From positions 124,001 to 188,000 of the forward strand of contig CAMYLK010000001.1 in assembly GCA_947259225.1 (NCBI GenBank): a stretch of 64,000 bases of DNA. Reading direction: 5' to 3'. The notes under the pieces were generated by a model. It made no database searches, had not been told where the DNA came from, and saw nothing but the letters and a program-made list of their open reading frames with translations. Source of the DNA: an uncultured Desulfobulbaceae bacterium (lineage in GTDB: Bacteria > Desulfobacterota > Desulfobulbia > Desulfobulbales > Desulfobulbaceae). Numbering within the stretch: position 1 is the first letter of the stretch; every line of letters begins with the position of its first letter. The position numbers and the translations under genes are program-made. Shown here piece after piece: positions 4,370-63,984 of this stretch.

Positions 4370-4824
4370 GGACTATTCTCCTTTCTGAAGCTTTGTATTC
4401 AAAATAGACAAAGTTAAAAGAGAAAAGTATGACTTAGGTCAAGAATGGCGCGTAATTTGGAGAAATATGATGGAAAGCAAGGAGGATGAGTATAAGCAAT
4501 TATTGAAGGTTCTATAAAGATTTTTTCAATCTCCACTTAGCTGAATTATAATCAGGTTGAGATTGTAAGAACAAATCTACTTTTTGATTTAGATGAGAAT
4601 TTGTTGCACACTGATTGTCAAATATTGATTCTTTGAAACTTTTTTAAATTTCCAGGGGAAAAATGTCCTGTTTATGTCTCTAGTATCAATCTATAGGGGT
4701 AATTTGATAAGATTCAAGAAGTGAAAATTTGAGATGTACGTCGAGAGGCTAAAATTTCGGTTTGGAAGAATTTTGAGCGTCACAATAGGTATTTTTATAT
4801 TTAAACCGGTATTTTAAAGAGATT
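4370..4824. other. AT-rich intergenic region between the DUF1858-like gene and the PKS 3' end
   Basis: About 450 bp with no credible coding frame, strong terminator or recognisable regulatory element on either strand. It must hold the promoter of the DUF1858-like gene near its left end and the 3' untranslated end of the PKS transcript at its right end. I see nothing else in it. Confidence 0.5.
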
Positions 4825-7800
4825 TCATACTATAACCTTTAAAGTCACAATAGTACCTGATGGATCCTCAATCATCTGTATATTGTCAGGACTCGAGCCA
4901 GCTTGCAGAACCATCTCTTTTAATGCCTCAGGCGAACTGTAACCAAGGTAAAAATCCATAAACCATTCCATGCTGTCACGTGCTGGATGGGTGGGTAAAT
5001 ATTTTTCAGCATAGATGAGAGAACCCTTTGGCATGGAGGATAAAAGAGTGCTCATTAAGGAAATAGTCTCTGCCTCGGTTAACGCCTCAAGAATCCCTAC
5101 TGCAATGCAACATGTAATGTCATTTGCTATTTCGGAAATTCTTTTCAGGGATTCTTCTTTTTTCAGGTTTAATTGTATTGGTCTTACGGATTTATATTCG
5201 TCAGCAAGTTCCGCCTGAACAAACTCGAGGGCACGGGGCTCCATATCGACAGCAATAATGTCAATCGGAAGATCGGTTTTAAGCCGAGAGAGCCTTCTTT
5301 CAATGGGCGCCGCACCAATTCCTAAATCGAGGATTCGGAACTTGTGGCCATTTCGCATTGAAGAAATCGATAATAGTTCGTCAGAGACCCATTCCACTCT
5401 TTTTCGGCACGCAACAGAAGATGGATTGTTGAGTTGAAAACGATCAAAATGGTAACCGATACCTGTACTTTGCAAGTCATTGTTTACAAGCATATCAAGG
5501 AGCTTGAAATCACCGGCATATCCAAGAGGTTTTTCGAGACTGTGCCGCATAACAATAGAATCACCCAAATTTTGAAGAACTACCTTTTGAAAAACATTTC
5601 TCATATTTGTTAACTTGGAACTGTCAGCATTTTTTTGAAATATTTTGAGCTGCTCCGTGATAGTTGTAAGATAGGCACTGAACTCTTCATGCCTCTCGGT
5701 CGTTCCTTTTTGGAAGGGGTCTTCAGCACATAATTTACTGAAATAGTCCATCTTTTCTTGATAATCTATAAGAAGTTCCTCAAACGATTTTTCGTGCTGC
5801 TTTTCAATCACTCCTTTTTGCTGATAGCTTAAGCTTAAATAATCTGGTTTAGCTTGCATCAAGAATAGGTGACGTAATTCTTTTGGCAAAGCACCTTCTG
5901 AAACATTCCCTTCATCAGATCTGGTGACCCACAACATATCCATTTCACCTTTCGCAAGCTTTTCCCTGGCTTGGTTGGCAAAGCGATAAAAATCAAACGA
6001 TAAATTACAACCATTTTCATGGAGAGCTTTTAGCGACATTGATATATGGATCTCATCATAAACCATTGCTTCCCGCAAATATTCTACACGACTTCCAGCA
6101 CACATAAGTTCACCGTTGGCATTCTGATTTCTGCAAATGTCTGGTAAATTTTTGTGGAACCAGTTTGTCAGGGCTTCTCCTTGCCATTTAGGAAAATTGC
6201 TATAATAGATATTCCGCAAAGGTGTAGTATGCTCCTGGTTAGTTTCAAATATGGCAGTATGTATTAGCGAGGGTCCTTTGGGGTCGATTTCAGAATCATA
6301 AAGCGTCTTCCCTTGGCGGAAGCCTTTGTTGCCGAAAGTATCCGGATCTTTTTCCTTGAATGAATAAGATGACTCAAGAAACTGCTCAAAATAATCTGGT
6401 AATGGTGCCAAACGGATGAGTCCTTTACTGTCAATTTCTACCCATCCTGTTTTCATTGTTGCGGTGGCAAGAAGAACAGGGTTATCAGGGTTGGAAACTT
6501 TGTGCCATTGGCATCCAAGCAGTATATTTGAGTTAAATGGCCCTTCTTTACTTATCAGCCAGAGACTCGCTTTTATAACATCATCGACACGTGCATCGTT
6601 ATACACTTTCAGGTCTACATTATTAGTCACTAACCCCCAACGCCCGGTTTCGAAGTTTCTGGAGAGAGATCCCATAATGGGTGATAATGCCACCTCCCTC
6701 AACTTACCGAACCAGTCAAAATAATTCGTATGATAGATGCCGCCTGAAGCCCCTTGTGTTTCCTTGAAACTGAGTGGATAAATTTGGACAACTTCTTGCG
6801 ATTTCCCATCTCCCAAACTATTTATATTCATCTGCCAGATATTATCGATGTGTTGCTGAATTCCCTTTGCGTCGCTATAGGCACCTGGTTGCGACTCAGA
6901 AAAATTTGGTGAATTGACGACCAATGCAATGATTTTTTCAGGTCCGAGGGTTAAAGAGACAGAAAAAGTAAGAATATACTGATCCTTTTCAAGCTGGGGA
7001 CTTTCAAACAGGATGATATCATCTTCTAACCGTTTGGAAAATTTAATTACTGCCGTTTGAAGACCCGATGCTTTTTTAACAGCTTCCGTTGCTGCCCAAA
7101 TTCTAGTTCCCGCCCGGTCATATGTTTCTGATAAGGTGAGCAGTTGCTCAAGTAATGCTAAGCTTTTTTCCCCCAAGATTGCCAACCAGTCCTTTTTCTC
7201 TCTTGAAAGAAGGGGCGAGATGTCACATCCCTGCGGGAACTGGCCTGCAACGCACAAAATGTAATTGTCATCGTGTGCAACTGATATATCAACTGTTTTT
7301 GAGAGGGGATCTTTAATGAATGGTTTTCCTGAAATATTCCAATCTATCTCTAAAGAATCTGGCAAACTAATATCAGAATTCTGGCCGAATTCATTAACTG
7401 CATTTTTCAGTAAGGGTATTTCATGCTGGTGCCGTTTATTTTTGTCGAGGTTATGAATGCCTGGAAAGTGTTTGATGGATGCAGCCGGCAGCTGATTTTG
7501 CAATAATTTTCGAATTCGCACAAGCCCTTCTTCTATAAGCTTTTGATCTCTTGGCTCTGGAGACAATAAGTTCTCAAGGCTTGGATTTTCAGGCATGTGG
7601 TCAAGAATACGAAGTTTGTAACCATATATTTTTTCTATTAATTTTCCATTGCAATCAAAACAGGACACCTCACCGAGTAAATGTTCATTGGATTGTTCGA
7701 GCAATTCAGTTTTAATCCAGAAGGCGTCAGCCGGATGTACGTCGTTGCCTGTTCTTTCGATACGCTCAATCGCAACAGGCAGGCAGGAATATTCTGGAAC

Positions 7801-10800
7801 TAATAATTGTATCGATTGCAACATGGTATCTCTGATATAAGGATTCCCGAAAGTTTCAGCTTCTGAACGATTGGGATACTCTTTAGTGTCTTTCCCAGCA
7901 TTTGAATTTATTGGTTCTGAAAGAAAAAGACATTGTCCCGTGCCATCCTGTTTCCTTTGAAGCTCATAAACTTCTTGTATGCATTGAAAACGACCACCTT
8001 GAAATAAAAATCTTCCATAAAGGTCAAGTTGCGGGGAAATGGATAAAGGTTTTTCAGGAAAGTCAATGGTTGATATTTCATGGCGGGCAGCTTTGCCAAA
8101 CACAAAAGTAGATTGAAAGTGATTAACTCGAAATCCTGTCTGGTCAGTCCTGATACCAACCTTTAATCTATAGTCTTCATTTGTGTCTTCCCGTTCAAGC
8201 AGTTCACATTGGACCTCCATGACTGTTCCGTTTTCAGGGTTCACGGGAATTGGGCGGTCAAGTCTGATGTCTGTAAGCTTGGTTAAGTTCAGGTCAGGCT
8301 TTTCAAGGAGCCTTTCTGCCACTTGCATCATTGCTTCAAGGCCAAAAACCGTTGGGAAGAGGTATGACCCTTTCCAAACATGATCTTCCAGGTACGAATC
8401 TTTTTCCAGGGTCAAATGTGTTCTTGTCGTTAACTCTATTCCCTTTTGAAAAAATACAACCTGCTCAATAAAGGAGAGTGGATTTTTGTCGACAATATCA
8501 GTCCCTGCCGAGACCTCTCCAAAATCATGCGAATGAAATGAAGAACGGGGAGAAATAATTGTTTGTGTATTACCGGGTGATTTTTCAAGCAGCTGTATAA
8601 ACCTCGTGATTCCTTCTGATGCAGGAATTGCTTCAATACCCATATTTTTCAGCCTGTCAATGCTGCCACTTTCATAGCCCATTCCCACTTCATCCCAAAT
8701 GCCATATGCAAGGCTTTGCACCTCGGTTTGTGGATGAGTTAAGGAATACTGGTAGAGAATAACATCAAGAACCTCGTTGGAAAAACCGTACCAGGCGTTC
8801 CCCTGCATGCCGGTAACTCCAATAATGGATGAAAATCCGATCCACATTTTTAGCTGGTTTTCCCGAAGAGCCTCCATGAGATATAATGCCCCTAAGATTT
8901 TTGGCCCAACCTCTTTCAATGCTTCATCAGCACTAACCTGTTCACATCTCCTTGGAATGTTTACTGCCGCACCGTGGATTACTCCAGTAATAGAACCAAG
9001 GTCATGGTGAATCATGTTCACAGTCTCTGTAACCATGTCTGGATCAGCGACATTGCATGAATAGTAGTTACATTCAATTCCGTTTGCCTTGAATTGCTCT
9101 AAGGCCTTTTTTATTTTCGAATCCCCACTTTGGGTCCTCCCAACCAGGGCCAACTTAACTTTTTTTGTCTTTAGAAATTCTCTTACACATTCTGCCGTGA
9201 TGCCCTTGGCACCCCCGGTAACAAGAATGACATCATTGGGGAACCATTGAAGGGATCTATCTGTATAGGAAGCTGGCTCAAGAACTGAGATTTCAGGAAT
9301 ATAACGTTTAAGGTTTTGGTCATAACCGCATTTGACGTAGCTCTCATTTTGAGCAGATTCTTGAAGAACAAGAGATGCAATTTGGTCGGGCGAAACAGTA
9401 CTGTCCATATCCACGACCCTTACCTTGAGGTGTTCTCGTTCACGAAACAGGCTTTCTGCCATTGCAGATGCACAGCACTGTTCAATGGATGTCAGCTTTG
9501 TTTGCATCCCGAACGATCCATTACCAAACTGTACAAATATTATTTCCCCTGGACTTGACGAGTGCAAGCAGGATATCGCAGTATGGATACGGTTGATCAT
9601 TGATGAAATTATGGTGTTTGGTGATACATCGCTCTCCCGTTTTCGGGGCAGAATTGAAACCACGTTTGACCATTTTTGTGAGGTTAAATCATGACGAGAA
9701 CTATAGTTTTTATACGTCCTTATTTCTGATGATGCACCATATGTTGACAGTTCCTTTTGGATAGACAACGCAACTTCCATTTCATCTGTTTCGCATAGTA
9801 ATAGAAGCTGTTTTTCTGCCAAAATGTTGTTCAAATCCTCTATGTTTACCTGTGGTAGGGATTCTTCAGTATACCGTATTTCAAAGTTGCGCACCCATGA
9901 CTGACTGTACTCATCGGACAAAGTCTGCTCGGCAATAGCCTCTTCTGCCACTTGCTTATCTCGTTCTGGCAGGGATAAGGAGGTGATTTTGAATAATAAA
10001 GAAACGACTTCCGCGACGGTAGAACGTGCAAAATCTCCAGGGTCAATCTGGTCTGCGATGTTTAATTTTTGAGCAGCAGAGGAAACCAGTTCAGCAGTCT
10101 TGATGGAGTCGAGGTTGAGGTCATCCAGCATACTCATTTCCATTGTCAATGAATCGGGCGGGAATCCAGTCCGCTCAGAGATCAAGTTGATAAAAAGCTC
10201 TTCAACTTCTTTTCGATCCAGTGGTTCACTATTCTCTTTTTGAGGGATGGTAAATTCATCTCCTTTTTCGCTGGTATGAGTTTCGTTGCGGCAAAGAGTC
10301 GTGAGCGCAACGGCTACTTCTCTTATTGTCGACTGGGCAAACTGACTGGGGTCTATCTGTCCTTCGATTTTTAGTTGCTGGGCGGCTGTAGCCACAACCT
10401 CAGCAGACTTGATTGAGTCCAGATTCAAGTCATCCAGGAGACGCAAATCTAAAGAAAGGCTTTCTCGTGGAAAACCTGTACGCTTTTGAATCAATTCTAA
10501 AATTACCTGTTCTACAGGTACATTATCATTGGTTATGGCAAATTCTGTCAGTGGTTCTGTTGGAGAGGGAGGATTAAGGAGGCCTTTACTGTTTCTTTCA
10601 TCATTCATATCCCTGTTATGAATAGTTGAAGAAGAATCCGGCATATTCTCCATGTCGACACGGATAAGGCCTTCAAGAAATTTGCCTCGCTGCTCAAGAT
10701 AATGTCTCAACTGCTGGGGGGGTATATCAACCGTATCTGAAAGGGTCGATTCCAAAAGTTCAACTGTGTTAACATTAAGCTGTGCGATATCCGGATCAAC

Positions 10801-13650
10801 CGCAAACGGTCTCTCACACGGGCTTATAAAGAACTCACGCTCCTCGGTACTGAGAAAAGGTCTGATCAGGCGGTCCTGATAGAGTTCATCCCAGTTTATG
10901 TTGCCTCCCTGGACGAAGTAACGCGCCAGAAAAATATTAAAGTCCCGGGTATGACCGGGTTGAGATTCAAGAGGGACACAGAGCAGGTTCTTTGAATGGA
11001 GGTTTGCTTTTACCAGATTTGACAAAACCTTTCCCGGACCGACCTCGACAAATAAATCACATTCTTTGTGCATTGACTGTAACAGTGAAGTGAAGTCGAC
11101 CTGAGAAATAACTTGGTCTGCGAAATGGTCGGGGAGACTCTGGCCAGGCTCAATTAATTTGCCACCCATGCAGGAGAAGATTTTGGCCGCCATATTCCCT
11201 GCCTTTTCAGGTAATGGGGTGTTTCTTCCCAGCCTCTTTGCAGTCCCTTTTACATACGAAGAATGGAATGCATTCGATACCTGCAGCATGTGGGTAGAAA
11301 TATTCTGCCCCTTTGCTTTATCGACTGCAAGGGCGACGCTCCGGCTGTCACCCGAGATGATTGTCTGCGTCGGGCTGTTGATATTGGCTACAACAACATA
11401 TCCCTCAATATCTTGAATAATATCTTGAGCAGTTTCCAGGGAACAGGCAAGGCTTGCCATTTTTCCTTTTCCCTTTTTGGACATTGCCATGGACAGACCG
11501 CGTATGGCTGCCAGCTGTATAAGTGATTTCTCATCAAGTACTCCGGCGGCATAAAACGCAGTCAACTCCCCGAGACTGTGTCCGCCGACTGCTTCCGGCA
11601 GTATCCCGAGGCGGCGTAAATATTCAACATACAGCATTGAGGCAAGGCAGATGGCAGGTTGTGCAACCTGGGACTGTTTCAATTCATTTTGCCATTTCCT
11701 GATTTCCCCATGGCTCGCTGCTTTTTCAAGAGAACGGAACATAAGTGGAGCAACATTACGCTTCCTGATCTCCTTTAACCAGTCCGTTGCATCGTTTACC
11801 AGCTCCCTGGCCCATTCATACCGCTCAACAAGTCTCCTCGACATGTTCAACTGCTGCGAACCCTGACCGGGAAAAAGAAATCCCACCCTGTTTTTCTGCA
11901 CGTTATTGCCTGCGAAAATGTCCTGTCGGCGGCTGATGTATATTTCTCCTTCTTCCAGGGGATTTTTTTTGAGTCTTCTTGAAAGAAATTGAAGCCCTCC
12001 AGAAAGTATATCAGGATTCCCTGTTGCCATGCAGGCCCTGACTTTGCTGGTTGGGTCAAATTCAACCGACAACTTGTGCGCAAGATCAGGAAGCTCTCCT
12101 ATGCTCAGTCCTTGAGACAGCTTCTCCAGGTGATTTATTTTTTCCAGAAGTTCAGCTGCCGAAGGAGCCCCGAAAGGGAATATTTCAGTAGCCTGATGAG
12201 AAGCAATAAGTTTTTGTTCGGTTATGGATGTTGACAGTCGTGGTGATGGTTCACCATAACTTTCAACGGTGACATGGCAATTTATACCTCCAAACCCCAT
12301 TGCAGAAATACCGGCTCTCAGCTTTTTGGATGGAGGGCACACCTCTCCTGTTACGAGGGGGTATACATTTTTCGCAGTGTCCTGGAAAACAGGGTTTGGT
12401 TCCAGGCAATTTGCAGTAGGTGGCAGAACACGTCGGTTAACCGCTGCAACAGTTTTAATAAAGCCGCCAATACCCGAGGCGGCCTTGGTATGTCCCACAA
12501 TAGATTTTAAAGAGGTGATCCCGTGACGGCGTGAATCTGAGAGCTTTTCACTGCCAAGGGCAATGGATATTCCTTCCAGCTCTGTCCGGTCACCAACAGC
12601 TGTTCCGGTGCCGTGACCTTCGAAGAAATCAACATCATGAATACTGTATTTAGCCTTACCATAGGCCCGTTTGAGTGCAGTTGCCTGCCCCCTGGCATTC
12701 GGTGCTGTCAATCCTCCTTTGCCGTCTGAGGATATACCCCAGCCATGCAATACCGCATAAATATGATCGCTGTCATTCAAGGCATCTTCCAGTCGCTTCA
12801 GAACAACAAAACCACAACCTTCGCCCGGGAAAAAACCATCAGCACGGCGGTCATATACACTCATATCCACCATTGACAAGGCACCGGTTTTGGAGAAACC
12901 AATCAATTCGAAGGTGTCGAGGCTTATATCAACTCCGCCAGCAAGGACTATATCCAGTTCATCATTGGCAAGCGACGTCGCTGCTGTAGCCACTGCTATA
13001 AGTGAGGATGAACAGGCACCGTCAACGGTATAACCCCCGCCGTGGAAATCGAAATAGTTGCAGATCCTTCCGGCAATCGTATTGGAGAGGCCGCCTGCCA
13101 GAGTATCTTCGGTGACAGGGGCAAATGTTGATTTGTAATACTGTTCAGAAAAGTGCAGCAACTCGGCAGAGGTTCCTGATGGCAAGCCCTTTGCTTTTGC
13201 TGCGGCCTCAATGCTCTTTCTGACATAAGGCCAGCGAAGACGAAGACCTTCAGAACGGGAATACTCTCCGGTTAGTGTATTTCCAAGAACGACACCGGAT
13301 TTTTCATTGGGAACGTTACCTTTTTCATAGCCGGCATCTTTCAGAGCTTTCAGAGAAATATCAAGGGCCAGCCAGTGGGTGATGTCACTTGATTCAATGG
13401 TGGTTTTCGGAATTCTGTGCGATGCCCAGTCAAATGAAAAACCATCTATCAGAGCCGCCTTTTTGCAATACATCTTATCCGGAACAGCAGGATCCGGATC
13501 ATAATATTCTGCCAACGGCAACCTTACATCAGGCATATCTCTGAATTGCCGCCTTCTGGCCAAAATATTTTCCCAGAATGACTTCAGGTCATCTGCACCC
13601 GGATACCGGCAGGCCATACCGACTATTGCTATAGGAGTTCCCTTGCTCAT
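4825..13650 (-). CDS. Enediyne/PUFA-type iterative polyketide synthase with fused PPTase, hotdog thioesterase-like segments and methyltransferase
   Basis: One 2941-residue chain. Order seen: ketosynthase (1-460; C213 in DGACSSS, H346 in EGHGTGT, H387 in GHTKAA); acyltransferase (about 590-900; S692 in GHSLG); two acyl carrier domains (S1079 and S1182, each in LDDLNLDSIK); ketoreductase (TGGAKGI at 1478, later WYGFSNE); dehydratase-like hotdog (H1757 in EDHVWKG, then LFPTVFGLEAM); phosphopantetheinyl transferase-like region (H2126, W2185 and E2189); a hotdog thioesterase-like segment (D2312 in YFDWFGKLRE); a second similar one (YYSNFPKWQGE, about 2485); and a class I methyltransferase (PLGYAGDF about 2707, DLGIGA from D2775). 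The KS segment SLDTFELIGFSKTGALS and KS-AT-ACP-KR-DH-PPTase order match enediyne PKSE and the related PUFA synthases. Those end at the PPTase, so the C-terminal fusion is extra. No tailoring genes are adjacent. The product is unknown. Confidence 0.88.
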   Translation of the reverse strand: MSKGTPIAIVGMACRYPGADDLKSFWENILARRRQFRDMPDVRLPLAEYYDPDPAVPDKMYCKKAALIDGFSFDWASHRIPKTTIESSDITHWLALDISLKALKDAGYEKGNVPNEKSGVVLGNTLTGEYSRSEGLRLRWPYVRKSIEAAAKAKGLPSGTSAELLHFSEQYYKSTFAPVTEDTLAGGLSNTIAGRICNYFDFHGGGYTVDGACSSSLIAVATAATSLANDELDIVLAGGVDISLDTFELIGFSKTGALSMVDMSVYDRRADGFFPGEGCGFVVLKRLEDALNDSDHIYAVLHGWGISSDGKGGLTAPNARGQATALKRAYGKAKYSIHDVDFFEGHGTGTAVGDRTELEGISIALGSEKLSDSRRHGITSLKSIVGHTKAASGIGGFIKTVAAVNRRVLPPTANCLEPNPVFQDTAKNVYPLVTGEVCPPSKKLRAGISAMGFGGINCHVTVESYGEPSPRLSTSITEQKLIASHQATEIFPFGAPSAAELLEKINHLEKLSQGLSIGELPDLAHKLSVEFDPTSKVRACMATGNPDILSGGLQFLSRRLKKNPLEEGEIYISRRQDIFAGNNVQKNRVGFLFPGQGSQQLNMSRRLVERYEWARELVNDATDWLKEIRKRNVAPLMFRSLEKAASHGEIRKWQNELKQSQVAQPAICLASMLYVEYLRRLGILPEAVGGHSLGELTAFYAAGVLDEKSLIQLAAIRGLSMAMSKKGKGKMASLACSLETAQDIIQDIEGYVVVANINSPTQTIISGDSRSVALAVDKAKGQNISTHMLQVSNAFHSSYVKGTAKRLGRNTPLPEKAGNMAAKIFSCMGGKLIEPGQSLPDHFADQVISQVDFTSLLQSMHKECDLFVEVGPGKVLSNLVKANLHSKNLLCVPLESQPGHTRDFNIFLARYFVQGGNINWDELYQDRLIRPFLSTEEREFFISPCERPFAVDPDIAQLNVNTVELLESTLSDTVDIPPQQLRHYLEQRGKFLEGLIRVDMENMPDSSSTIHNRDMNDERNSKGLLNPPSPTEPLTEFAITNDNVPVEQVILELIQKRTGFPRESLSLDLRLLDDLNLDSIKSAEVVATAAQQLKIEGQIDPSQFAQSTIREVAVALTTLCRNETHTSEKGDEFTIPQKENSEPLDRKEVEELFINLISERTGFPPDSLTMEMSMLDDLNLDSIKTAELVSSAAQKLNIADQIDPGDFARSTVAEVVSLLFKITSLSLPERDKQVAEEAIAEQTLSDEYSQSWVRNFEIRYTEESLPQVNIEDLNNILAEKQLLLLCETDEMEVALSIQKELSTYGASSEIRTYKNYSSRHDLTSQKWSNVVSILPRKRESDVSPNTIISSMINRIHTAISCLHSSSPGEIIFVQFGNGSFGMQTKLTSIEQCCASAMAESLFREREHLKVRVVDMDSTVSPDQIASLVLQESAQNESYVKCGYDQNLKRYIPEISVLEPASYTDRSLQWFPNDVILVTGGAKGITAECVREFLKTKKVKLALVGRTQSGDSKIKKALEQFKANGIECNYYSCNVADPDMVTETVNMIHHDLGSITGVIHGAAVNIPRRCEQVSADEALKEVGPKILGALYLMEALRENQLKMWIGFSSIIGVTGMQGNAWYGFSNEVLDVILYQYSLTHPQTEVQSLAYGIWDEVGMGYESGSIDRLKNMGIEAIPASEGITRFIQLLEKSPGNTQTIISPRSSFHSHDFGEVSAGTDIVDKNPLSFIEQVVFFQKGIELTTRTHLTLEKDSYLEDHVWKGSYLFPTVFGLEAMMQVAERLLEKPDLNLTKLTDIRLDRPIPVNPENGTVMEVQCELLEREDTNEDYRLKVGIRTDQTGFRVNHFQSTFVFGKAARHEISTIDFPEKPLSISPQLDLYGRFLFQGGRFQCIQEVYELQRKQDGTGQCLFLSEPINSNAGKDTKEYPNRSEAETFGNPYIRDTMLQSIQLLVPEYSCLPVAIERIERTGNDVHPADAFWIKTELLEQSNEHLLGEVSCFDCNGKLIEKIYGYKLRILDHMPENPSLENLLSPEPRDQKLIEEGLVRIRKLLQNQLPAASIKHFPGIHNLDKNKRHQHEIPLLKNAVNEFGQNSDISLPDSLEIDWNISGKPFIKDPLSKTVDISVAHDDNYILCVAGQFPQGCDISPLLSREKKDWLAILGEKSLALLEQLLTLSETYDRAGTRIWAATEAVKKASGLQTAVIKFSKRLEDDIILFESPQLEKDQYILTFSVSLTLGPEKIIALVVNSPNFSESQPGAYSDAKGIQQHIDNIWQMNINSLGDGKSQEVVQIYPLSFKETQGASGGIYHTNYFDWFGKLREVALSPIMGSLSRNFETGRWGLVTNNVDLKVYNDARVDDVIKASLWLISKEGPFNSNILLGCQWHKVSNPDNPVLLATATMKTGWVEIDSKGLIRLAPLPDYFEQFLESSYSFKEKDPDTFGNKGFRQGKTLYDSEIDPKGPSLIHTAIFETNQEHTTPLRNIYYSNFPKWQGEALTNWFHKNLPDICRNQNANGELMCAGSRVEYLREAMVYDEIHISMSLKALHENGCNLSFDFYRFANQAREKLAKGEMDMLWVTRSDEGNVSEGALPKELRHLFLMQAKPDYLSLSYQQKGVIEKQHEKSFEELLIDYQEKMDYFSKLCAEDPFQKGTTERHEEFSAYLTTITEQLKIFQKNADSSKLTNMRNVFQKVVLQNLGDSIVMRHSLEKPLGYAGDFKLLDMLVNNDLQSTGIGYHFDRFQLNNPSSVACRKRVEWVSDELLSISSMRNGHKFRILDLGIGAAPIERRLSRLKTDLPIDIIAVDMEPRALEFVQAELADEYKSVRPIQLNLKKEESLKRISEIANDITCCIAVGILEALTEAETISLMSTLLSSMPKGSLIYAEKYLPTHPARDSMEWFMDFYLGYSSPEALKEMVLQAGSSPDNIQMIEDPSGTIVTLKVIV

Positions 13651-14104: not shown

Positions 14105-14182
14105 GGAAATATACGATAAAGCCACCCCTGCTGCAGGCAGGGACGGAAAGCCACGGGTCTTCAAAGATAGCCGGGTTGCCTT
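14105..14182 (+). ncRNA. GEMM-I-type (cyclic di-GMP-I / cGAMP) riboswitch aptamer
   Basis: The stretch contains GGGACGGAAAGCC, then ACGGGTCT, then ATAGCCGGGTTGCC, in the order and spacing of the GEMM-I core, whose consensus is close to GGGACGCAAAGCC...GGGTCT...AGCCGGGTTGCC. A P2-like hairpin CCTGC/GCAGG precedes the core. The same arrangement recurs at 16890-16973. The ligand (c-di-GMP or 3',3'-cGAMP) cannot be decided by eye. It lies directly before a lipoprotein gene, and its 3' strand is shared with a terminator, so it probably switches transcription. Confidence 0.78.
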
Positions 14183-14212
14183 GGTCAAAGGTAGCTCGGC
14201 TATTATTTTTTT
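14167..14212 (+). terminator. Riboswitch expression-platform terminator
   Basis: Arms ATAGCCGGGTTGCC (14167-14180) and GGTAGCTCGGCTAT (14190-14203) pair over 14 bp with G-U wobbles, followed by a T-rich tract to 14212. The left arm is the 3' strand of the aptamer, so ligand-bound aptamer and terminator exclude each other. That predicts gene expression ON with ligand. Confidence 0.8.
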
Positions 14213-16889: not shown

Positions 16890-16973
16890 GTAACAATCAA
16901 AGATAAGGTTAAATCTGTCTTGAGGTAGGGGCGGAAAGCTACGGATCTTCCAAATATAGCCGGGTTGCGTTTG
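16890..16973 (+). ncRNA. GEMM-I-type (cyclic di-GMP-I / cGAMP) riboswitch aptamer upstream of cooS
   Basis: Core words GGGGCGGAAAGCTACGG, ATCTTC and ATAGCCGGGTTGC run in the same order and spacing as in the element at 14105-14182, with a short hairpin CTGTC/GGTAG where P2 belongs. It starts about 10-30 nt after a good sigma-70 promoter and ends in a terminator sharing its 3' strand. It lies 125 nt before the carbon monoxide dehydrogenase start codon. P2 and P1 contain wobble pairs, so a covariance-model score would be useful. Confidence 0.75.
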
Positions 16974-28483: not shown

Positions 28484-28520
28484 TGTATTTTTGATTGTTG
28501 ACCGGATAAAAAAAAGACAA

Positions 28521-28550
28521 AAAAAACCCCGCAAAAAGCGGGGTTTTTTT
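28521..28550. terminator. Bidirectional Rho-independent terminator
   Basis: AAAAAACCCCGC - AAAAA - GCGGGGTTTTTTT: a stem flanked by A- and T-runs that can end both the plus-strand zinc-ribbon gene and the minus-strand cspA. Confidence 0.95.
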
Positions 28551-28569
28551 GTTTCAGTTGTCAATGGGA

Positions 28570-28770
28570 TTAGACGGCAACAACGTTAGCCGCGGCAGGT
28601 CCCTTAGCGCCGTCAACGACGTCGAAACTTACTCGCTGGCCTTCCTGGAGGCTTTTAAAGCCCTGTGCCTGGATAGCTGAATGGTGGACAAAAACGTCTT
28701 TACCACCATCCTGCTCAATAAAGCCAAATCCCTTAGAATCATTAAACCATTTTACTGTTCCTTCTACCAT
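28570..28770 (-). CDS. cspA: Cold-shock protein (CspA family)
   Basis: 66 residues with both nucleic-acid-binding motifs, KGFGFIEQ and DVFVHHSAI, and the ending [10 protein letters not shown]. It is a single-stranded RNA/DNA-binding chaperone. It lies downstream of the DEAD-box helicase on the same strand, a functionally sensible pair for cold adaptation, although the 107-bp gap may hold its own promoter. Confidence 0.95.
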
Positions 28771-28877
28771 TTGTAATACTCCTTACTACGCGGTTTCATT
28801 TTGAAACCATTTATTAATAAACCGGATTTCTGTTAATGAAACCCGGCATGCAGTCTGATGGTTCAGACTGCGGTCCA

Positions 28878-56499: not shown

Positions 56500-57087
56500 A
56501 TGAATATGCTGAATGTTTTTTCAGACTATCTTTGACCCTTCTGCTGGCTGGCGGAGCCGGCCATCAAGGAACTTGAACAACTCAGCTCTGATATTACTGT
56601 CAGATGGCGGGCATTTGAACTTCGTCCTGATCCGGTTCCTCTTCTTGATCCACAAGGTGAATACCTGACCCGCGTGTGGCGTGATCATGTCTACCCTCTG
56701 GCCCAACAGATGAACATGCCATTACAACGCCCAACGGTGCAGCCCCGTTCACGTCTTGCTCATGAGGCGGCTAAATGGGCCGGCAGGCAAAAGAGATTTG
56801 ACGAATACAATCTTGCCCTTTTTCAGGCTTTTTTTCAGCATGGCCTCGATATCGGTAAACAGGGGATACTCAAGCAGCTGGCCGAAGAACTGGATCTTGA
56901 TCCATCTGGTTTGTTAACATCGCTCGCCAATGAAACATTTACCCCAGAGGTGCTGGCCGACCAGGAGGAAGCCAGGCAGATCGGAGTCAGTGCTGTTCCG
57001 GCCTTTGCCTTGGATGGCCGGGTAATAGCAACGGGAGTACAGACGGTTGATACCCTGAAGAATCTCCTCAACCTCAGGCCATTATAG
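56500..57087 (+). CDS. FrnE/DsbA-like selenoprotein (in-frame UGA = Sec12, U-P-F-C active site)
   Basis: ATG 56500 has AGGA 8 nt upstream. Reading through TGA at 56533-56535 gives MNMLNVFSDYL-U-PFCWLAEPAIKEL, then WRAFELRPDPVP, and on to the stop at 57087 (195 residues). FrnE proteins (DsbA clan, 'FSDfvCPWCwig' then 'W.aFeLrP') have a CPxC redox site at exactly this position, so Sec replaces the nucleophilic Cys. The cis-Pro segment is VSAVPAFALDGR. A hairpin TGGCTGGC/GCCGGCCA with loop GGA lies 17 nt after UGA. A conventional caller would start at 56674 and remove the active site. Predicted thiol/selenol oxidoreductase or isomerase of unknown substrate. Confidence 0.88.
56533..56563 (+). promoter_or_regulatory. 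bSECIS-like element in the FrnE-like gene
   Basis: After TGA (56533-56535) come 17 nt and the loop GGA (56553-56555), closed by an 8-bp stem TGGCTGGC (56545-56552) / GCCGGCCA (56556-56563) with one G-U pair. Distance, stem and the G-rich loop match the other two UGA sites in the window. Confidence 0.78.
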
Positions 57088-58417: not shown

Positions 58418-58711
58418 TCAGCAACTGCAGACGTTAACCGGTTTTCCCCGTATCTTTGATATCCAGCTGTTGATAATGTAGGCGGCACATCCGCAGCCAT
58501 CGTCCGGGTTTACGTAAATAGCCCCGGTCGGGCAATTAGTAGCGCATGCTCCGCATTCCATGCAGGCGTTGTAATCAACAATTCGTGCCTTTTTATCATG
58601 CAGTTCAAAAATACGGTGCGGGCAGACTGTTTCGCACATGCCGCAGCCGATACAGGCATCCTCATCGAGCTTGAGAATTGCTGCGCCGTCAATATATCTG
58701 AAATTTTTCAT
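58418..58711 (-). CDS. hgcB: Mercury methylation ferredoxin HgcB
   Basis: 97 residues from ATG 58711, with AGGAG 8 nt upstream, 11 bp after hgcA. Two [4Fe-4S] motifs, CIGCGMCETVCPHRI and CMECGACATNCPTGA, are followed by GCGCAAYIINSW and a C-terminal Cys pair (VCSC) that is a hallmark of HgcB and is proposed to bind Hg(II). HgcB is thought to reduce the HgcA corrinoid so that it can accept a methyl group. Part of arsR-hgcA-hgcB. Confidence 0.96.
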   Translation of the reverse strand: MKNFRYIDGAAILKLDEDACIGCGMCETVCPHRIFELHDKKARIVDYNACMECGACATNCPTGAIYVNPDDGCGCAAYIINSWISKIRGKPVNVCSC

Positions 58712-58722
58712 CCGTTCTGCTC

Positions 58723-59928
58723 CTAGGCCATAAATGGGGCCGCTATCCACAGTACAAGCGCAATGAGCGTTCCGATTATCTGAATCGTCAAGCCTTTGCG
58801 CATTTCCAGCTCAACCCCGGAAAGTGAGGTGTAAGGGGTTGCTCCAGTGAAGTTCATGGCCATATAAGATGTTGTAGCGGTGATCCAGAGCCACAGGCTG
58901 AAGTTTTCGAACAAGTTGCTGTTTACGGTAAGCAACATTACGTAAACTAAACCTGCAAGTCCTCCGATCAGTAGACCTTTAAACCAGAACTGGCGTCCTG
59001 GTATCCAGGGGAGAAGTGCCGGGGTCACCAGGGCTCCGGCCAAAATGGCAAAGAATGTAGCTCCGGCAGCGTTAGTTCCCCTGTTCAAGGCGGTCTGCAG
59101 GGAATAGATTTCCGTGCCGATGCCGGAAAGAATAAATATAGCGATGGTAACGAGGGCAAAAATTTTCCAGATCAGTGCTATCTCCACAGGTACGAGAACC
59201 AGCCGTTCCCACATGGTAAAGGTCACTGAACGCATAGTTTCATCTGCCTGCTTACCGTTGGTGATAAATTGTGGCAGGTCCTCCGCCCTGAGAGGGCCAT
59301 ACGTCCCTTTAAATCCGCATTTTTTATTGAGTTCATGCGAGGCTATACCGGTTGCCGCAAACTGGGGGAGAATAAGTTCCCTGTGGGATACGATTCTATC
59401 AAGGCCGGTTCTCTGTACCTGCAGGGCAACCTCGTCTGCTGAAAAAGTTCCTTTGCCGGCAGCACACCACACATTGATTCCTCGTGTGTCAGCAACCAGG
59501 ATCCAGGCATCAAGTCCTTTCATTTCCTTGCGTAATGCATCAAAGCTAAGCTTATAGTTGGCTGTGACGAAGACGGGTGAATCGGGAACAGGGTTACCTG
59601 CACAATAGAGACCGGGATTGATTTTGTATTGATTACGGGCGATGCCGATACGGGCCCTTAAAGTACCAAGATGGTCCCTTAAATTCATGGCAGTTCTTAC
59701 TTGAGGTACATGTCCGGCCGGGGTTTCGATAAAATCCTCTACATAAGACTGTATACTGTATCCCGGCAGATTGTAGACCCCGGACCTGGGGTCTGTTTTA
59801 GGGCCTCAGCAGGGAGCATCGTCTGCGCAGTCTGCCAAGACAACAGGAATGGCGTTCCCGAAGCCCTGCTGGCCTATTGGCTGCAGATTCAAAAGGTCTG
59901 GAGGAGACTGTTCGCCGATCGTTTTCAT
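58723..59928 (-). CDS. hgcA: Mercury methylation corrinoid protein HgcA, predicted selenoprotein (Sec41)
   Basis: From ATG 59928 the frame reads MKTIGEQSPPDLL... to APC, then TGA at 59808-59806, then GPKTDPRSGVYNLPGYSIQSYVEDFIETPAGHVP and on to the known HgcA body; 401 residues in all. The extension matches the HgcA N-terminus as I recall it ('CCG...PGY..fVe.f..T.aG.VP.V.T'), with UGA at the second Cys. The cobalamin domain has the cap-helix motif NVWCAAGK (Cys155, the Co ligand); five helices follow from about residue 245. ATG 59928 overlaps the arsR stop (ATGA) and has GAGGT upstream, whereas ATG 59688, the conventional start, has no good site. A SECIS-like hairpin follows UGA. HgcA methylates Hg(II) to methylmercury. 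Confidence 0.85.
59775..59808 (-). promoter_or_regulatory. bSECIS-like element in hgcA
   Basis: On the minus strand, TGA (59808-59806) is followed after 18 nt by loop AGGTCC (59787-59782), closed by the perfect 7-bp stem AGACCCC/GGGGTCT. The loop nearly equals the AGGUCU apical loop of Escherichia coli fdhF, which sits 17 nt after its UGA, including the G and U contacted by SelB. Confidence 0.82.
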
Positions 59929-60257
59929 TTCATTACCTCACAGTTCAACAAGGCGTACATGGATTTGCATACCGAAGCCAGCCTTTTTTTGTCTATACAG
60001 TAGCAGGTTTTGGGGCCTTCAACTTCACCCTGGACCAGACCTGATTCCTTGAGAATTTTTAAATGCTGACTTACGGTTGATTGCGCCAGTGGCAGAACCT
60101 CAACAATTCGTCCGCAGACGCATCGGTCTTCATCAAGCAGATGTTTGAAAATTGTAATACGGGCCGGATGTGCAAGTGCTTTGAACATCATTGCCAGTTC
60201 GTCCGTATCTATCTGTTCTGTGTCAGAGTCCATATCCAGTGAAGACTGATAGCTCAT
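59925..60257 (-). CDS. ArsR-family metalloregulator of the hgc operon
   Basis: 110 residues, AAGGAG before ATG. Winged helix with ALAHPARITIFKHLL and the recognition helix LAQSTVSQHLKILKESGLV. Cys pair DRCVCGRIVEVL sits where ArsR has its ELCVCDL arsenite site, and the C-terminus has four more Cys (TCYC, VC, NC), so metalloid or metal sensing is likely. Such regulators commonly precede hgcA. Its stop overlaps the proposed hgcA start by 4 bp, which implies translational coupling. A large inverted repeat directly upstream is the probable operator. Confidence 0.92.
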   Translation of the reverse strand: MSYQSSLDMDSDTEQIDTDELAMMFKALAHPARITIFKHLLDEDRCVCGRIVEVLPLAQSTVSQHLKILKESGLVQGEVEGPKTCYCIDKKRLASVCKSMYALLNCEVMK

Positions 60258-60536: not shown

Positions 60537-61760
60537 TCAGCCGCCAAAATCGTCAAAGTGGATGTTTTCCTGCTCAACTCCCAGGTTGTCGAGCATCTCC
60601 AGCGCAGCTTTGGCCATCATGGGCGGGCCGCACATGTAATAGTTGATATCTTCCGGGGCCGGGTGGTCCTGCAGATAATTGTCAAGAAGAACCTGGTGAA
60701 TAAATCCGGTCAAACCCTGCCAGTTGTCCTCAGGTAGAGGCTCTGAAAGGGCCAGGTGGAATGAAAAGTTTTCGTGTTCACTGGCAAGTTTCTCGAACTC
60801 ATCGTCGTAAAAAACTTCCTGCATGCTTCTCCCTCCGTACCAGTAAGAAACCCTACGTTTTGTATCACGGGCCTTGAAAAGGTCAAAGATATGACTCCGA
60901 AGCGGGGCCATGCCGGCACCTCCTCCTATGTACACCATTTCCGAATCGCTTTCTTCGATGAAGAATTCACCGAATGGCCCGGATATGATGACCTCGTCAC
61001 CGGGTTTCAGATTGAAAATATACGATGAAACCTGACCCGGCGGGATATCAACAGGACCGCCGGGCGGAGGACTGGCAATCCTGATATTGAGTTTGATAAT
61101 TCCTTTTTCACCAGGATAGTTGGCCATGGAGTAGGCTCTTGTCACTGGAGTGTGTACATGGGATGTATATTGGAACATTTTGAATTTCTTCCAGTCTGCC
61201 AGAAACCGTTCATCTATGTCAAAGCTGGAATAGGAGAGAGCATGGGGAGGTACCTCAATCTGGATGAAACCGCCCGGCTTAAAATTGACCTCTTCACCGG
61301 GAGGCAGTTCCAGAACAAGTTCCTTGATAAATGTTGCCACGTTGTTATTGGACCGGACCTTACAAGACCATTTTCTTGCGTCCATCATTTCTGCCGGGAC
61401 ATGTATTTTAAGGTCTTGTTTTACCGGTACCTGGCAGGATAATCGGACTCCGGATCTGGCTTCGACATTATTAATCAGGGAGCGTTCAGTCGGCAGGATT
61501 GCTCCCCCGCCTTCGTCAACCACAACCCTGCATTGGCCGCAGGTTCCACCACCACCGCAGGCAGAGGAAAGATAAATTTCCTGTTCGGCCAAAGCTGTCA
61601 GGAGTTTTCCACCCGGCACGGTGGAAACTTTTTTGTCATCATTGATCAGGATGGAAATGTCTCCACTGGGAACAAGTGTCTTCTTGGCCAGAACGATCAG
61701 GGTGACCAGAATCAGTTGAATGATAAGAAAGCAGGTTACGCCGAAGATGATTTCATTCAT
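60537..61760 (-). CDS. nqrF: Na+-translocating NADH:quinone reductase subunit F
   Basis: 407 residues: one N-terminal helix, a [2Fe-2S] domain ([10 protein letters not shown], later RLSCQV; about residues 70-115), then an FAD/NADH reductase domain with RAYSMANYP (FAD), [23 protein letters not shown] (NADH) and the ending [15 protein letters not shown]. It is the electron-input subunit that oxidises NADH. The 2Fe-2S/FAD layout distinguishes NQR from Rnf. Confidence 0.96.
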
Positions 61761-61814
61761 TTTTACAGTATTTGTTTTTTATACAGGCTTTACTGCCTGA
61801 ACTGATTATTGTTA

Positions 61815-62417
61815 CTAAAATCCTGCCAGTCCCATGAACGCAAGGGCCATAAGGCCTGCACATATAAAGGTCAGGCCAAGTCCCCGCAGTCCGGCTGGGG
61901 GATCAGCATATTCAAGTTTTTCTCTGATGCCTGCCAGTAGTACTACGGCCAGGAAAAATCCGGCCCCGGCCCCAAAACCGTAAGCCACACTCTCCAGGAA
62001 AGTATAGTCGCGTTCAACCATGAACAGTGATCCGCCGAAGATAGCGCAGTTGACTGTAAGTAACGGTAGAAAGATGCCCAGTGTGTTGTACAGAGCTGGT
62101 GAGAAGCGGTCCAAAAACATTTCCAGGATCTGGACTACTGCAGCAATGACGCCGATGTATGAAAGCAGGCCGATAAAGGTGAGATCAAGATTCGGCTGCC
62201 CGGCCCAGGCAAGAGCCCCAGGTTTTAATACGAAGTTGAGGATCAGGTTGTTAATCGGCACTGTAATAGCGAGGAGGACAATAACTGCAAAACCAAGACC
62301 GATCGCGGTCGAAACCTTCCTGGAAATAGCCAGGAAGGTACACATTCCAAGGAAAAAGGTCAGCGGCAGGTTTTCAATAAAAACAGACCTGAATATGATA
62401 TCAAAATAATGGCCCAT
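61815..62417 (-). CDS. nqrE: Na+-translocating NADH:quinone reductase subunit E
   Basis: 200 residues, six helices, with [12 protein letters not shown] in helix 1-2 and [11 protein letters not shown] in helix 4. These conserved Cys, with those of NqrD, hold an iron centre in the membrane. Followed by nqrF after 54 bp. An unusual 165-bp spacer separates it from nqrD. Confidence 0.95.
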
Positions 62418-62503
62418 CAGTTCAGCTACTCAAAGGGTTTATATATTTACAGGTATCACCTGCTCCATGTTTGTAAGTGGGCTTGAGTGCTGCAGATTTG
62501 AGC

Positions 62504-62548
62504 AATCGCGATTGTCTGTAATAGCCAGTTATGCAGACAGGCGCGATT
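62504..62548. other. Hairpin in the nqrD-nqrE spacer
   Basis: AATCGCG (62504-62510) and CGCGATT (62542-62548) flank an inner TGTCTG/CAGACA stem. The 165-bp spacer (62418-62582) is odd because nqrD and nqrE usually abut. It could tune relative expression or be an inserted repeat. Confidence 0.5.
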
Positions 62549-62582
62549 CCACAAAGATGTGGTGCACAAGACCACTTACCCA

Positions 62583-63206
62583 TCAGTTTTTCTCCTGTTG
62601 CTCAGGGTCAACAGTCCTGAACAGCCAGATAAGCGCGGCAATAAGAAAAAAAGCACTGACCGGTAGAATAAAGAGACCGTTTCTGGGATACCAGCCGCCT
62701 TCTGAAGAAAGTTTCAGTATTTCGTAACCGAAAAGAGAACCGGAACCCAGCAGTTCACGGAAAAAGGCAACGAACATCAAAACAAGACTATAGCCAAGGC
62801 CGTTGCCGATTCCGTCAATGAAACTTGGGACGGGAGGATTGCTCATGGCAAAACCCTCCGCCCGGCCCATGACAATACAGTTGGTGATGATGAGCCCCAC
62901 ATAGATGGAAAGCTGTTTGGAGAGGTCAAAATAAAAAGCCCTGAGAAACTGATCTATGAGGATAACCAGGGTCGCGATAACTGTTATCTGGATACCGATC
63001 CTGACAGTATTAGGTATCTGGAAACGGACAATACTGATGGTGAGGCTGGAAAAGGCAATGACCAGGATCACACAGATGGACATAACCAGGGCGGTTATCA
63101 TCTGGGAAGTAACCGCCAGGGCAGAACACACACCAAGAACAAGCAGCGCGATGGGGTTGCGGCGAAAGATTGAAAGGGTCAGCAGTTCTCTGTTGGATTC
63201 AGCCAT
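62583..63206 (-). CDS. nqrD: Na+-translocating NADH:quinone reductase subunit D
   Basis: 207 residues from ATG 63206, with AAGGGAG upstream, overlapping the nqrC end by 8 bp. Six helices; [15 protein letters not shown] and [22 protein letters not shown] carry the conserved Cys and the family signature. It forms the Na+ channel core with NqrE and NqrB. Confidence 0.95.
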
Positions 63207-63984
63207 TGTTGTCTCCCTTGTTATGAAGACGGAGGAGAAATGGTTTGAAACCATGATCCCCAAACCAGAAATGCATAAGGTCATTGACGCCGTCTGCGGT
63301 CATGGTGGCTCCCGAAAGACCGTCAACCTGATACTGGGCCTCCTCTCCTGTGGTAGGTGCCTTTCCTTTGACCACAGCGAGAGCGAGCGTCTGTTCGGGA
63401 CTATACATTTTCTTACCCTGCCAGCCGGCCAGCCATTTTTCGTTCTCTATCTCGCCACCAAGCCCCGGGGTTTCACCATGTTCATAAAAACTGATACCGC
63501 GGATGGTTGTGAGATCTGCATCCAGGGAGACATAACCGTACATGGTTGACCACAATCCTTTCCCGCGGACGGGCAGAATGATCTGGACGGTTTCATCGTC
63601 ATCCTTGACCTGGTAGACCAGTGAATATTTTTCAAGCCGCCGCAGTCCTGCAAGGTCATCTTCAGCGTTCAGAGGGCGGCCAAGGTCAGCACTGAGTGCT
63701 GCCTTCAGCTGGTTGTAGGATTCAGGAGAAACCTGACTTTCGGGAACGAATTCCCCGGTGGCCAGTTCAACGATTTTCGTTTTTATATTAGAGAATTGGC
63801 TGTCAACCGGTTTGTCTTTGTCGTACAGGCCGGCCGCGCGCAGGATGTTTTTCCTCTGGTCTTGCTGACGGTTCGCCTCCTGGAGGGGTCGCAGACCAAC
63901 TGCGGCACCGGCAACAAGCGCTGAGCAGACAAAGGCCAGTACCAGGACGGAATAAAAAGGTTTGGCTGCCGGCTCTTTACCCAT
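63199..63984 (-). CDS. nqrC: Na+-translocating NADH:quinone reductase subunit C
   Basis: 261 residues: N-terminal helix ([19 protein letters not shown]), periplasmic FMN-binding domain with [26 protein letters not shown] and the covalent-FMN motif LSGATMT (Thr flavinylated by ApbE). nqrB is expected just beyond the right edge; the last 16 bases of the window carry only its possible 3' end. Confidence 0.95.

Follow-up and report, generated by a model that had tools for sequence, protein, structure and literature searches.

We suggest that hgcA in the window, by which we mean the whole 64,000-nucleotide stretch of Desulfobulbaceae DNA analysed here, encodes a selenocysteine (Sec)-containing HgcA with an N-terminal Cys-Sec pair that serves as a mercury ligand. 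As a whole we hold this explanation to be probable, and its parts differ in strength: the insertion of Sec at codon 41, predicted from the sequence, is almost certain, and the role of the pair as a ligand stands at about even chances. SelB would read the UGA at codon 41 as Sec, aided by a hairpin just behind it, and the product would be a 401-residue HgcA whose flexible tail, N-terminal to the corrinoid domain, carries the pair. There the pair may serve as a thiolate-selenolate ligand for Hg(II), or for methylmercury as the product, near the corrinoid and hand the metal to or from it, by analogy with the C-terminal Cys pair of HgcB, which is proposed to carry Hg(II) in the available part of PMC7305189. 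Sec insertion is supported by the open frame, the exchange of Cys and UGA among relatives, an excess of hairpin stability, purifying selection and the presence of selA, selB and selD. Among the points against the explanation are that selC was not found and that a Shine-Dalgarno word stands before the upstream start in only 19 of the 67 Sec loci.

The frame, read directly on the minus strand (58723..59928), is open over 401 codons from ATG 59928-59926 to TAG 58725-58723. Its sole interruption is the TGA at 59808-59806, the predicted Sec41 of Cys40-Sec41-Gly42, with which Cys or UGA is aligned in relatives. The read-through product matched the NCBIfam model of HgcA (NF040863) with 429.8 bits, against a cut-off of 275, over residues 74-399. 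It contains the cap helix N-V-W-C with its cobalt-facing cysteine (NVWCA), encoded at 59464..59466 as Cys155, which is Cys93 in ND132 numbering. The genes on the minus strand are arranged in the order arsR (60257-59925), hgcA (59928-58723) and hgcB (58711-58418). The arsR-type metalloregulator gene (PF01022, NF033788) is directly upstream, and its stop codon (59927-59925) has a 4-nt overlap, ATGA, with the ATG at 59926..59928. This ATG is the likely start of hgcA, and GAGGT at 59935..59939, 6 nt ahead, is its likely ribosome-binding site. The conventional start, ATG at 59686..59688 (codon 81), is without such a site and begins the 321-aa database protein, which is how the window's own HgcA appears in the protein set (P0001). 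The first-pass annotation had therefore read the locus correctly: the frame runs 80 codons upstream of ATG 59688 to an ATG overlapping the arsR stop, the UGA follows Cys and precedes Gly, ATG 59688 has no decent ribosome-binding site, and conventional calling yields an N-terminally truncated HgcA. Two other origins of the UGA were considered and rejected. A sequencing error does not fit the recurrence of the same UGA in many separate assemblies, and a genetic code in which UGA simply has a sense meaning does not fit homologues that have Cys, nor the window's arsR and hgcB, which themselves end at UGA.

Sec-HgcA is already in print as a prediction, and the window gene is another member of this group. 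It was predicted by Haft & Gwadz 2023, as cited in the portion of PMC11588087 available to us, and a table in the accessible part of a 2026 review (PMC13188914) includes HgcA with the motif CU and HgcB with the motif GVGU. Both sources contradict the claim of the first-pass annotation that no Sec-containing HgcA had been described; the rest of its reading, a Sec insertion and a truncated record, is well supported in the first point and true in the second. The window protein agrees with the Sec-HgcA of that table (NF040863, after Haft & Gwadz 2023) in being a corrinoid protein with predicted Sec after Cys. Two other papers that cite Haft & Gwadz do not mention HgcA in the text available. With the Sec-HgcB tabulated there (NF040864) it shares the pathway and the kind of recoding, but in Sec-HgcB the Sec replaces the essential Cys73, whereas the window's HgcB has Cys (GCGC). 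Cys-Cys HgcA (e.g. P0104 and P0114) is the same protein with CCGPK instead of C-UGA-GPK; it has a Cys codon, little hairpin excess and often several CC pairs in the tail.

The exchange of UGA and Cys was evident in loci picked for their closeness to the window's gene, so that the share of UGA among them is not that of HgcA at large. In an alignment of 110 loci, the column held UGA in 44 and Cys in 49, the latter count including L101, which is poorly aligned, and L123, which has its UGA elsewhere. Some HgcA match was obtained in 51 of the 73 genomes of the window's family, and in 32 it was over the cut-off; among 30 loci fetched from this family, 18 had UGA and 2 had Cys. The other 10 had neither a residue at the column nor a pair in the tail, and the pair is thus not indispensable. 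The best 80 of 577 named loci, three of which also belong to the same-family set, comprised 26 with UGA, 47 with Cys, 3 with Arg, one each with Ser and Tyr, and 2 with a gap. In the UGA loci of these sets, Cys stands directly before the UGA and Gly-Pro directly after it. Its position is nearly invariant: the UGA lies exactly 107 codons before the search motif in 43 of 44 UGA loci (3 of the 44 are duplicates) and 106 codons before it in L099. Among the 38 loci parsed from L150-L188 there were 28 with UGA, two of them duplicates, and in 26 of the 28 the distance to the cap cysteine was 114 codons, as in the window, with 115 in L164 and L165. Homologues thus hold C-C-G or C-UGA-G in one register, the Cys forms reading through in one frame, which is the outcome for a comparison that the first-pass annotation had proposed together with a search for downstream hairpins; these were found as well. 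A separate case is L070 (Desulfobulbaceae BM004), whose hgcA is of the Cys form and has a UGA off the motif, within the part that encodes the corrinoid domain; this is a broken gene or a sequence error.

If the UGA were a real stop, a 40-codon leader peptide would be made and a shorter HgcA would re-initiate downstream, here at ATG 59688. The lengths of deposited proteins agree with this, because 103 of the 120 matches listed (of 7979) are 306-351 aa long, and none of these 103 spans more than 88% of the read-through protein. The part of PMC11588087 available also describes a HgcA produced in E. coli, about 37 kDa in size, that accepts methyl groups from SAM, and reports methylmercury formation in E. 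coli lysates containing HgcAB; should this construct be the 338-aa form, a tail-less HgcA is active. However, pN/pS pooled over 13 close pairs was 0.29 in the 39 codons after the UGA and 0.28 in the core, so that the stretch from the UGA to the downstream start is under the same constraint as the core, and the Cys homologues run through this region in one frame with CCG. The ratio was 0.48 before the UGA; judging from this, the codons there are under purifying selection as well, and the relatives do not show the lack of conservation upstream of the UGA that would have spoken against the first reading. The called starts also differ by species, being codon 81 here and a GTG 22 codons after the UGA in ND132-like genes. 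In the Sec loci, with L160 and L181 left out, a 5-nt Shine-Dalgarno word preceded 23 of the 146 candidate starts that lie upstream of the UGA, compared with 3 of the 160 that lie downstream; counted per locus, the 19 of 67 with a word before an upstream start compare with 3 of 67 before a downstream one. We consider a real stop very improbable and keep Sec insertion as the preferred reading.

The 7-bp SECIS-like hairpin (59775..59794, minus strand) has the loop AGGUCC at 59787-59782, which we take to resemble the SECIS loop of fdhF. The first-pass annotation had the stem length and the loop right; its spacing of 18 nt after the UGA applies to the start of the loop and was wrong for the stem, which begins after 11 nt. 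The hairpin is the minimum-energy structure and makes up 0.89 of the ensemble. Against dinucleotide shuffles it was only moderately unusual (z -1.92, 14 of 200 as good). It was strongly unusual against synonymous-codon shuffles, in which nucleotides +10 to +33 after the UGA were folded with the protein kept and the gene's own codon usage applied (observed -13.0, mean -3.7, z -4.79, 0 of 300). By the same measure, 38 of 40 Sec forms had a negative z (mean -1.85, 18 at p<=0.05), and two hairpins, those of L042 and L095, were weaker than their own shuffles. The non-Sec forms (n=51) had a mean z of -0.35, with 4 at p<=0.05. All of 26 further Sec loci, from the family of G073 and the genus of G148, were negative (mean z -2.13, 15 at p<=0.05); the loci are related by descent and so are not independent trials. 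The stems vary in letters and keep their pairing (GACCCC/GGGGUC, GUGUCC/GGACAC, UCCAC/GUGGA). Residue +7, which is encoded by the loop, was Arg in 38 of 39 Sec forms compared with 7 of 51 non-Sec forms. L123, L022, L101 and identical stretches were dropped from both comparisons, and L099 from that of residue +7 only. Since many relatives have the UGA and hairpin at the same distance from the cap-helix cysteine, the motif is not a matter of chance. A hairpin shortly after the UGA is what is required of a SECIS in a bacterial selenoprotein, and we predict that this one is the SelB element.

The genome that contains the window is a 4.28-Mb draft of 288 contigs, 93.3% complete. In it we found SelA (630.1 bits), SelB (350.7) and SelD (338.9), each above its cut-off. 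Its own selD (L018, C4:163775-164704) has an in-frame UGA followed by a hairpin, and the selenophosphate synthetase of this genome is likely a selenoprotein itself. The search for the sel genes that had been proposed earlier thus succeeded for selA, selB and selD and failed for selC: no tRNA-Sec in this 93%-complete assembly exceeded the cut-off, and in one scan, in which 150 of 351 candidates were scored, the eight at the top of the list proved to be ordinary tRNAs. By comparison, tRNA-Sec was present in 6 of 6 genomes of the same genus. In one of these, L059, it adjoins a gene that we take, by name, to be glyQ. A search with the glyQ protein of L059, run without a positive control, gave no match in the window's genome, and the absence of both neighbours fits a gap in the assembly.

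In a tree of 107 rows, the 41 Sec rows lay on one side of a branch with a support of 84, which implies 1 change. In a tree of 144 rows, the 67 Sec rows needed 3 changes, 1 of them forced by branches with good support. The duplicates L066, L088 and L100 were dropped from the trees, and L160, L181, L158 and L171 from the second; L167 and L191 were not parsed. Because the label needs 1 change in one tree and 3 in the other, a single origin is not settled by the trees, and Sec in HgcA arose once or a few times and was kept widely.

The genus of G148 was taken to be Pseudodesulfovibrio because named records of that genus (L083 and L107) are among its genomes, and it likely includes the standard laboratory methylator. 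HgcA was found in 21 of 36 genomes of this group, and the UGA was present in all 20 hgcA genes in which the motif could be read; the contig of the remaining locus, L187, ends just after the motif. Twelve of the 20 have a GTG 22 codons past the UGA from which the cap cysteine would be residue 93, and in 4 of these 12 the protein from that GTG would have 338 aa. The deposited HgcA of P. mercurii (P0153), whose record we assume to be that of strain ND132, is alike in the core and also has 338 aa; it starts with MDGF aligned with that GTG and has its cysteine at 93. By its core it falls into a starred set of 6 rows that also contains P. indicus and four Sec forms. From these relatives and the deposited protein, the HgcA of ND132 is very probably a Sec form truncated in annotation. 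P0153 is on a long branch (0.58), and for this reason a loss of Sec in ND132 is possible. Neither the UGA in all 20 genes of the group nor the truncation in ND132 was found in the papers that could be read.

The AlphaFold2 model of HgcA (mean pLDDT 88.4) consists of a corrinoid domain and five long helices from residue 246, which in prediction gives the HgcA architecture of a corrinoid domain with five membrane helices. The best Foldseek match was 9a0b, a model of HgcAB, followed by CFeSP. The large subunit of CFeSP (2ycl, 2h9a) is alike in sequence and fold, but its match is limited to the corrinoid domain, with the tail and the membrane part of HgcA outside. In the model there is no secondary structure before residue 63; pLDDT was below 50 in residues 1-23, and it averaged 59 in residues 31-40 and 72 in residues 41-50. 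Counted from the first Met of the frame, the tails of 46 rows called Cys had no vicinal pair in 7, one in 16, two in 19, three in 3 and four in 1, so that Cys at the column does not always mean a CC pair. The Sec forms had one pair in 40 of 41. The HgcA of SAR324 L123 (L123:2405, cluster MAG) has eight vicinal pairs, and in the last, UGA-Cys, Sec would be first and not second. This UGA has a hairpin of its own (z -2.01, p 0.05), and a separate origin of Sec is possible there; another HgcA of the SAR324 family, L190, has plain CC pairs.

The repeated CC pairs of the Cys-form tails, up to 4 and in SAR324 8, together with the unstructured N-terminus of the model, favour a ligand role. The pair could instead be a redox or corrinoid-reactivating element that reduces or frees a thiolate-bound corrinoid or forms a selenenylsulfide. 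Sec is more often redox-active than metal-binding. The accessible text of PMC7305189 also proposes a crosslinked Co-thiolate intermediate that needs reduction. However, repeated pairs look more like metal binding, HgcB carries iron-sulfur clusters for electron supply, and the Sec form L174 has Gly in place of the partner Cys before the UGA. A redox function is therefore unlikely, though of all alternatives it has the strongest claim. It is less likely still that the tail acts in sensing or protection and takes no part in catalysis, scavenging Hg(II) or As(III) in order to protect the enzyme or inform ArsR. The arsR-type gene that overlaps hgcA in the window would suit such a role, as would the lack of the pair in some homologues. 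Yet nothing was found that links HgcA and ArsR, and UGA in 69 of 145 parsed rows, which were chosen for closeness to the window's gene or by clade, suggests a chemical need. We prefer the ligand role to both.

The window's hgcB (58418..58711, minus strand; NF040864, 107.9 bits against a cut-off of 99) has Cys rather than Sec where ND132 has Cys73. Of the 98 loci in which hgcB could be read, 10 have UGA at this codon (L105, L108, L115, L122, L125, L127, L128, L129, L130 and L135). Each of these UGAs is followed by a 7-bp hairpin over GGU[CAU], which becomes the loop AGGU[CAU]U when the last A-U pair is opened; z against synonymous shuffles ranged from -1.94 to -2.49, with 6 of 10 at p<=0.05. 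All 10 Sec-HgcB loci lacked Sec in HgcA, and Sec in HgcB was absent from all 37 Sec-HgcA loci whose hgcB could be read; every HgcB read in L151-L188 likewise had Cys at this position. The never-both pattern rests on few origins on each side and may be an accident. It was not found in the papers that could be read. Around Cys73, the window's HgcB has GCGC instead of GVGC and so an extra cysteine; this occurred in 20 of the 37 Sec-HgcA loci and in 0 of 61 others. Tentatively, and with somewhat less than even confidence, we combine these results in the proposal that ND132 and its whole genus make Sec-HgcA, that the enzyme numbered by Cys93 lacks the Cys-Sec tail, and that a Sec-using HgcAB needs one selenol as a ligand to move Hg(II) or methylmercury past the corrinoid, this selenol being located either at HgcB Cys73 or in the tail of HgcA and never at the two sites together.

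A Cys-Sec pair carried by a flexible tail would be a direct candidate for the route of Hg(II) to the corrinoid and for the exit of methylmercury. It is missing from deposited sequences, and also from the proteins studied if these were made from the annotated start. Gene calls and models based on deposited N-termini omit a conserved part of the protein in a large group of likely methylators. The supply of selenium might, through HgcA itself, influence the formation of methylmercury.

Reading UGA as sense opened 74 frames in the whole window, of which hgcA and a DsbA-like gene were the two examined for homology. In the latter (56500-57087, plus strand), the UGA at 56533-56535 replaces the first Cys of CxxC (U-P-F-C); the read-through matched profile positions 2-190 of PF01323 with 107 bits, and a hairpin follows (z -2.24 and -2.03). 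By sequence it is likely a second selenoprotein gene in the window, and UxxC DsbA selenoproteins are known from the available part of PMC2398784. The viral contigs searched contained no relative of this protein. Upstream of arsR-hgcAB, the minus-strand region 60537-63984 includes nqrF (TIGR01941), and three further frames beyond it are presumably other nqr genes, by their position. There were c-di-GMP-I riboswitch matches at 14111-14183 and 16898-16972 (plus strand) and a cspA thermoregulator match at 28519-28838 (minus strand), and a very long open frame of about 2940 codons occupies 4804-13650 on the minus strand.
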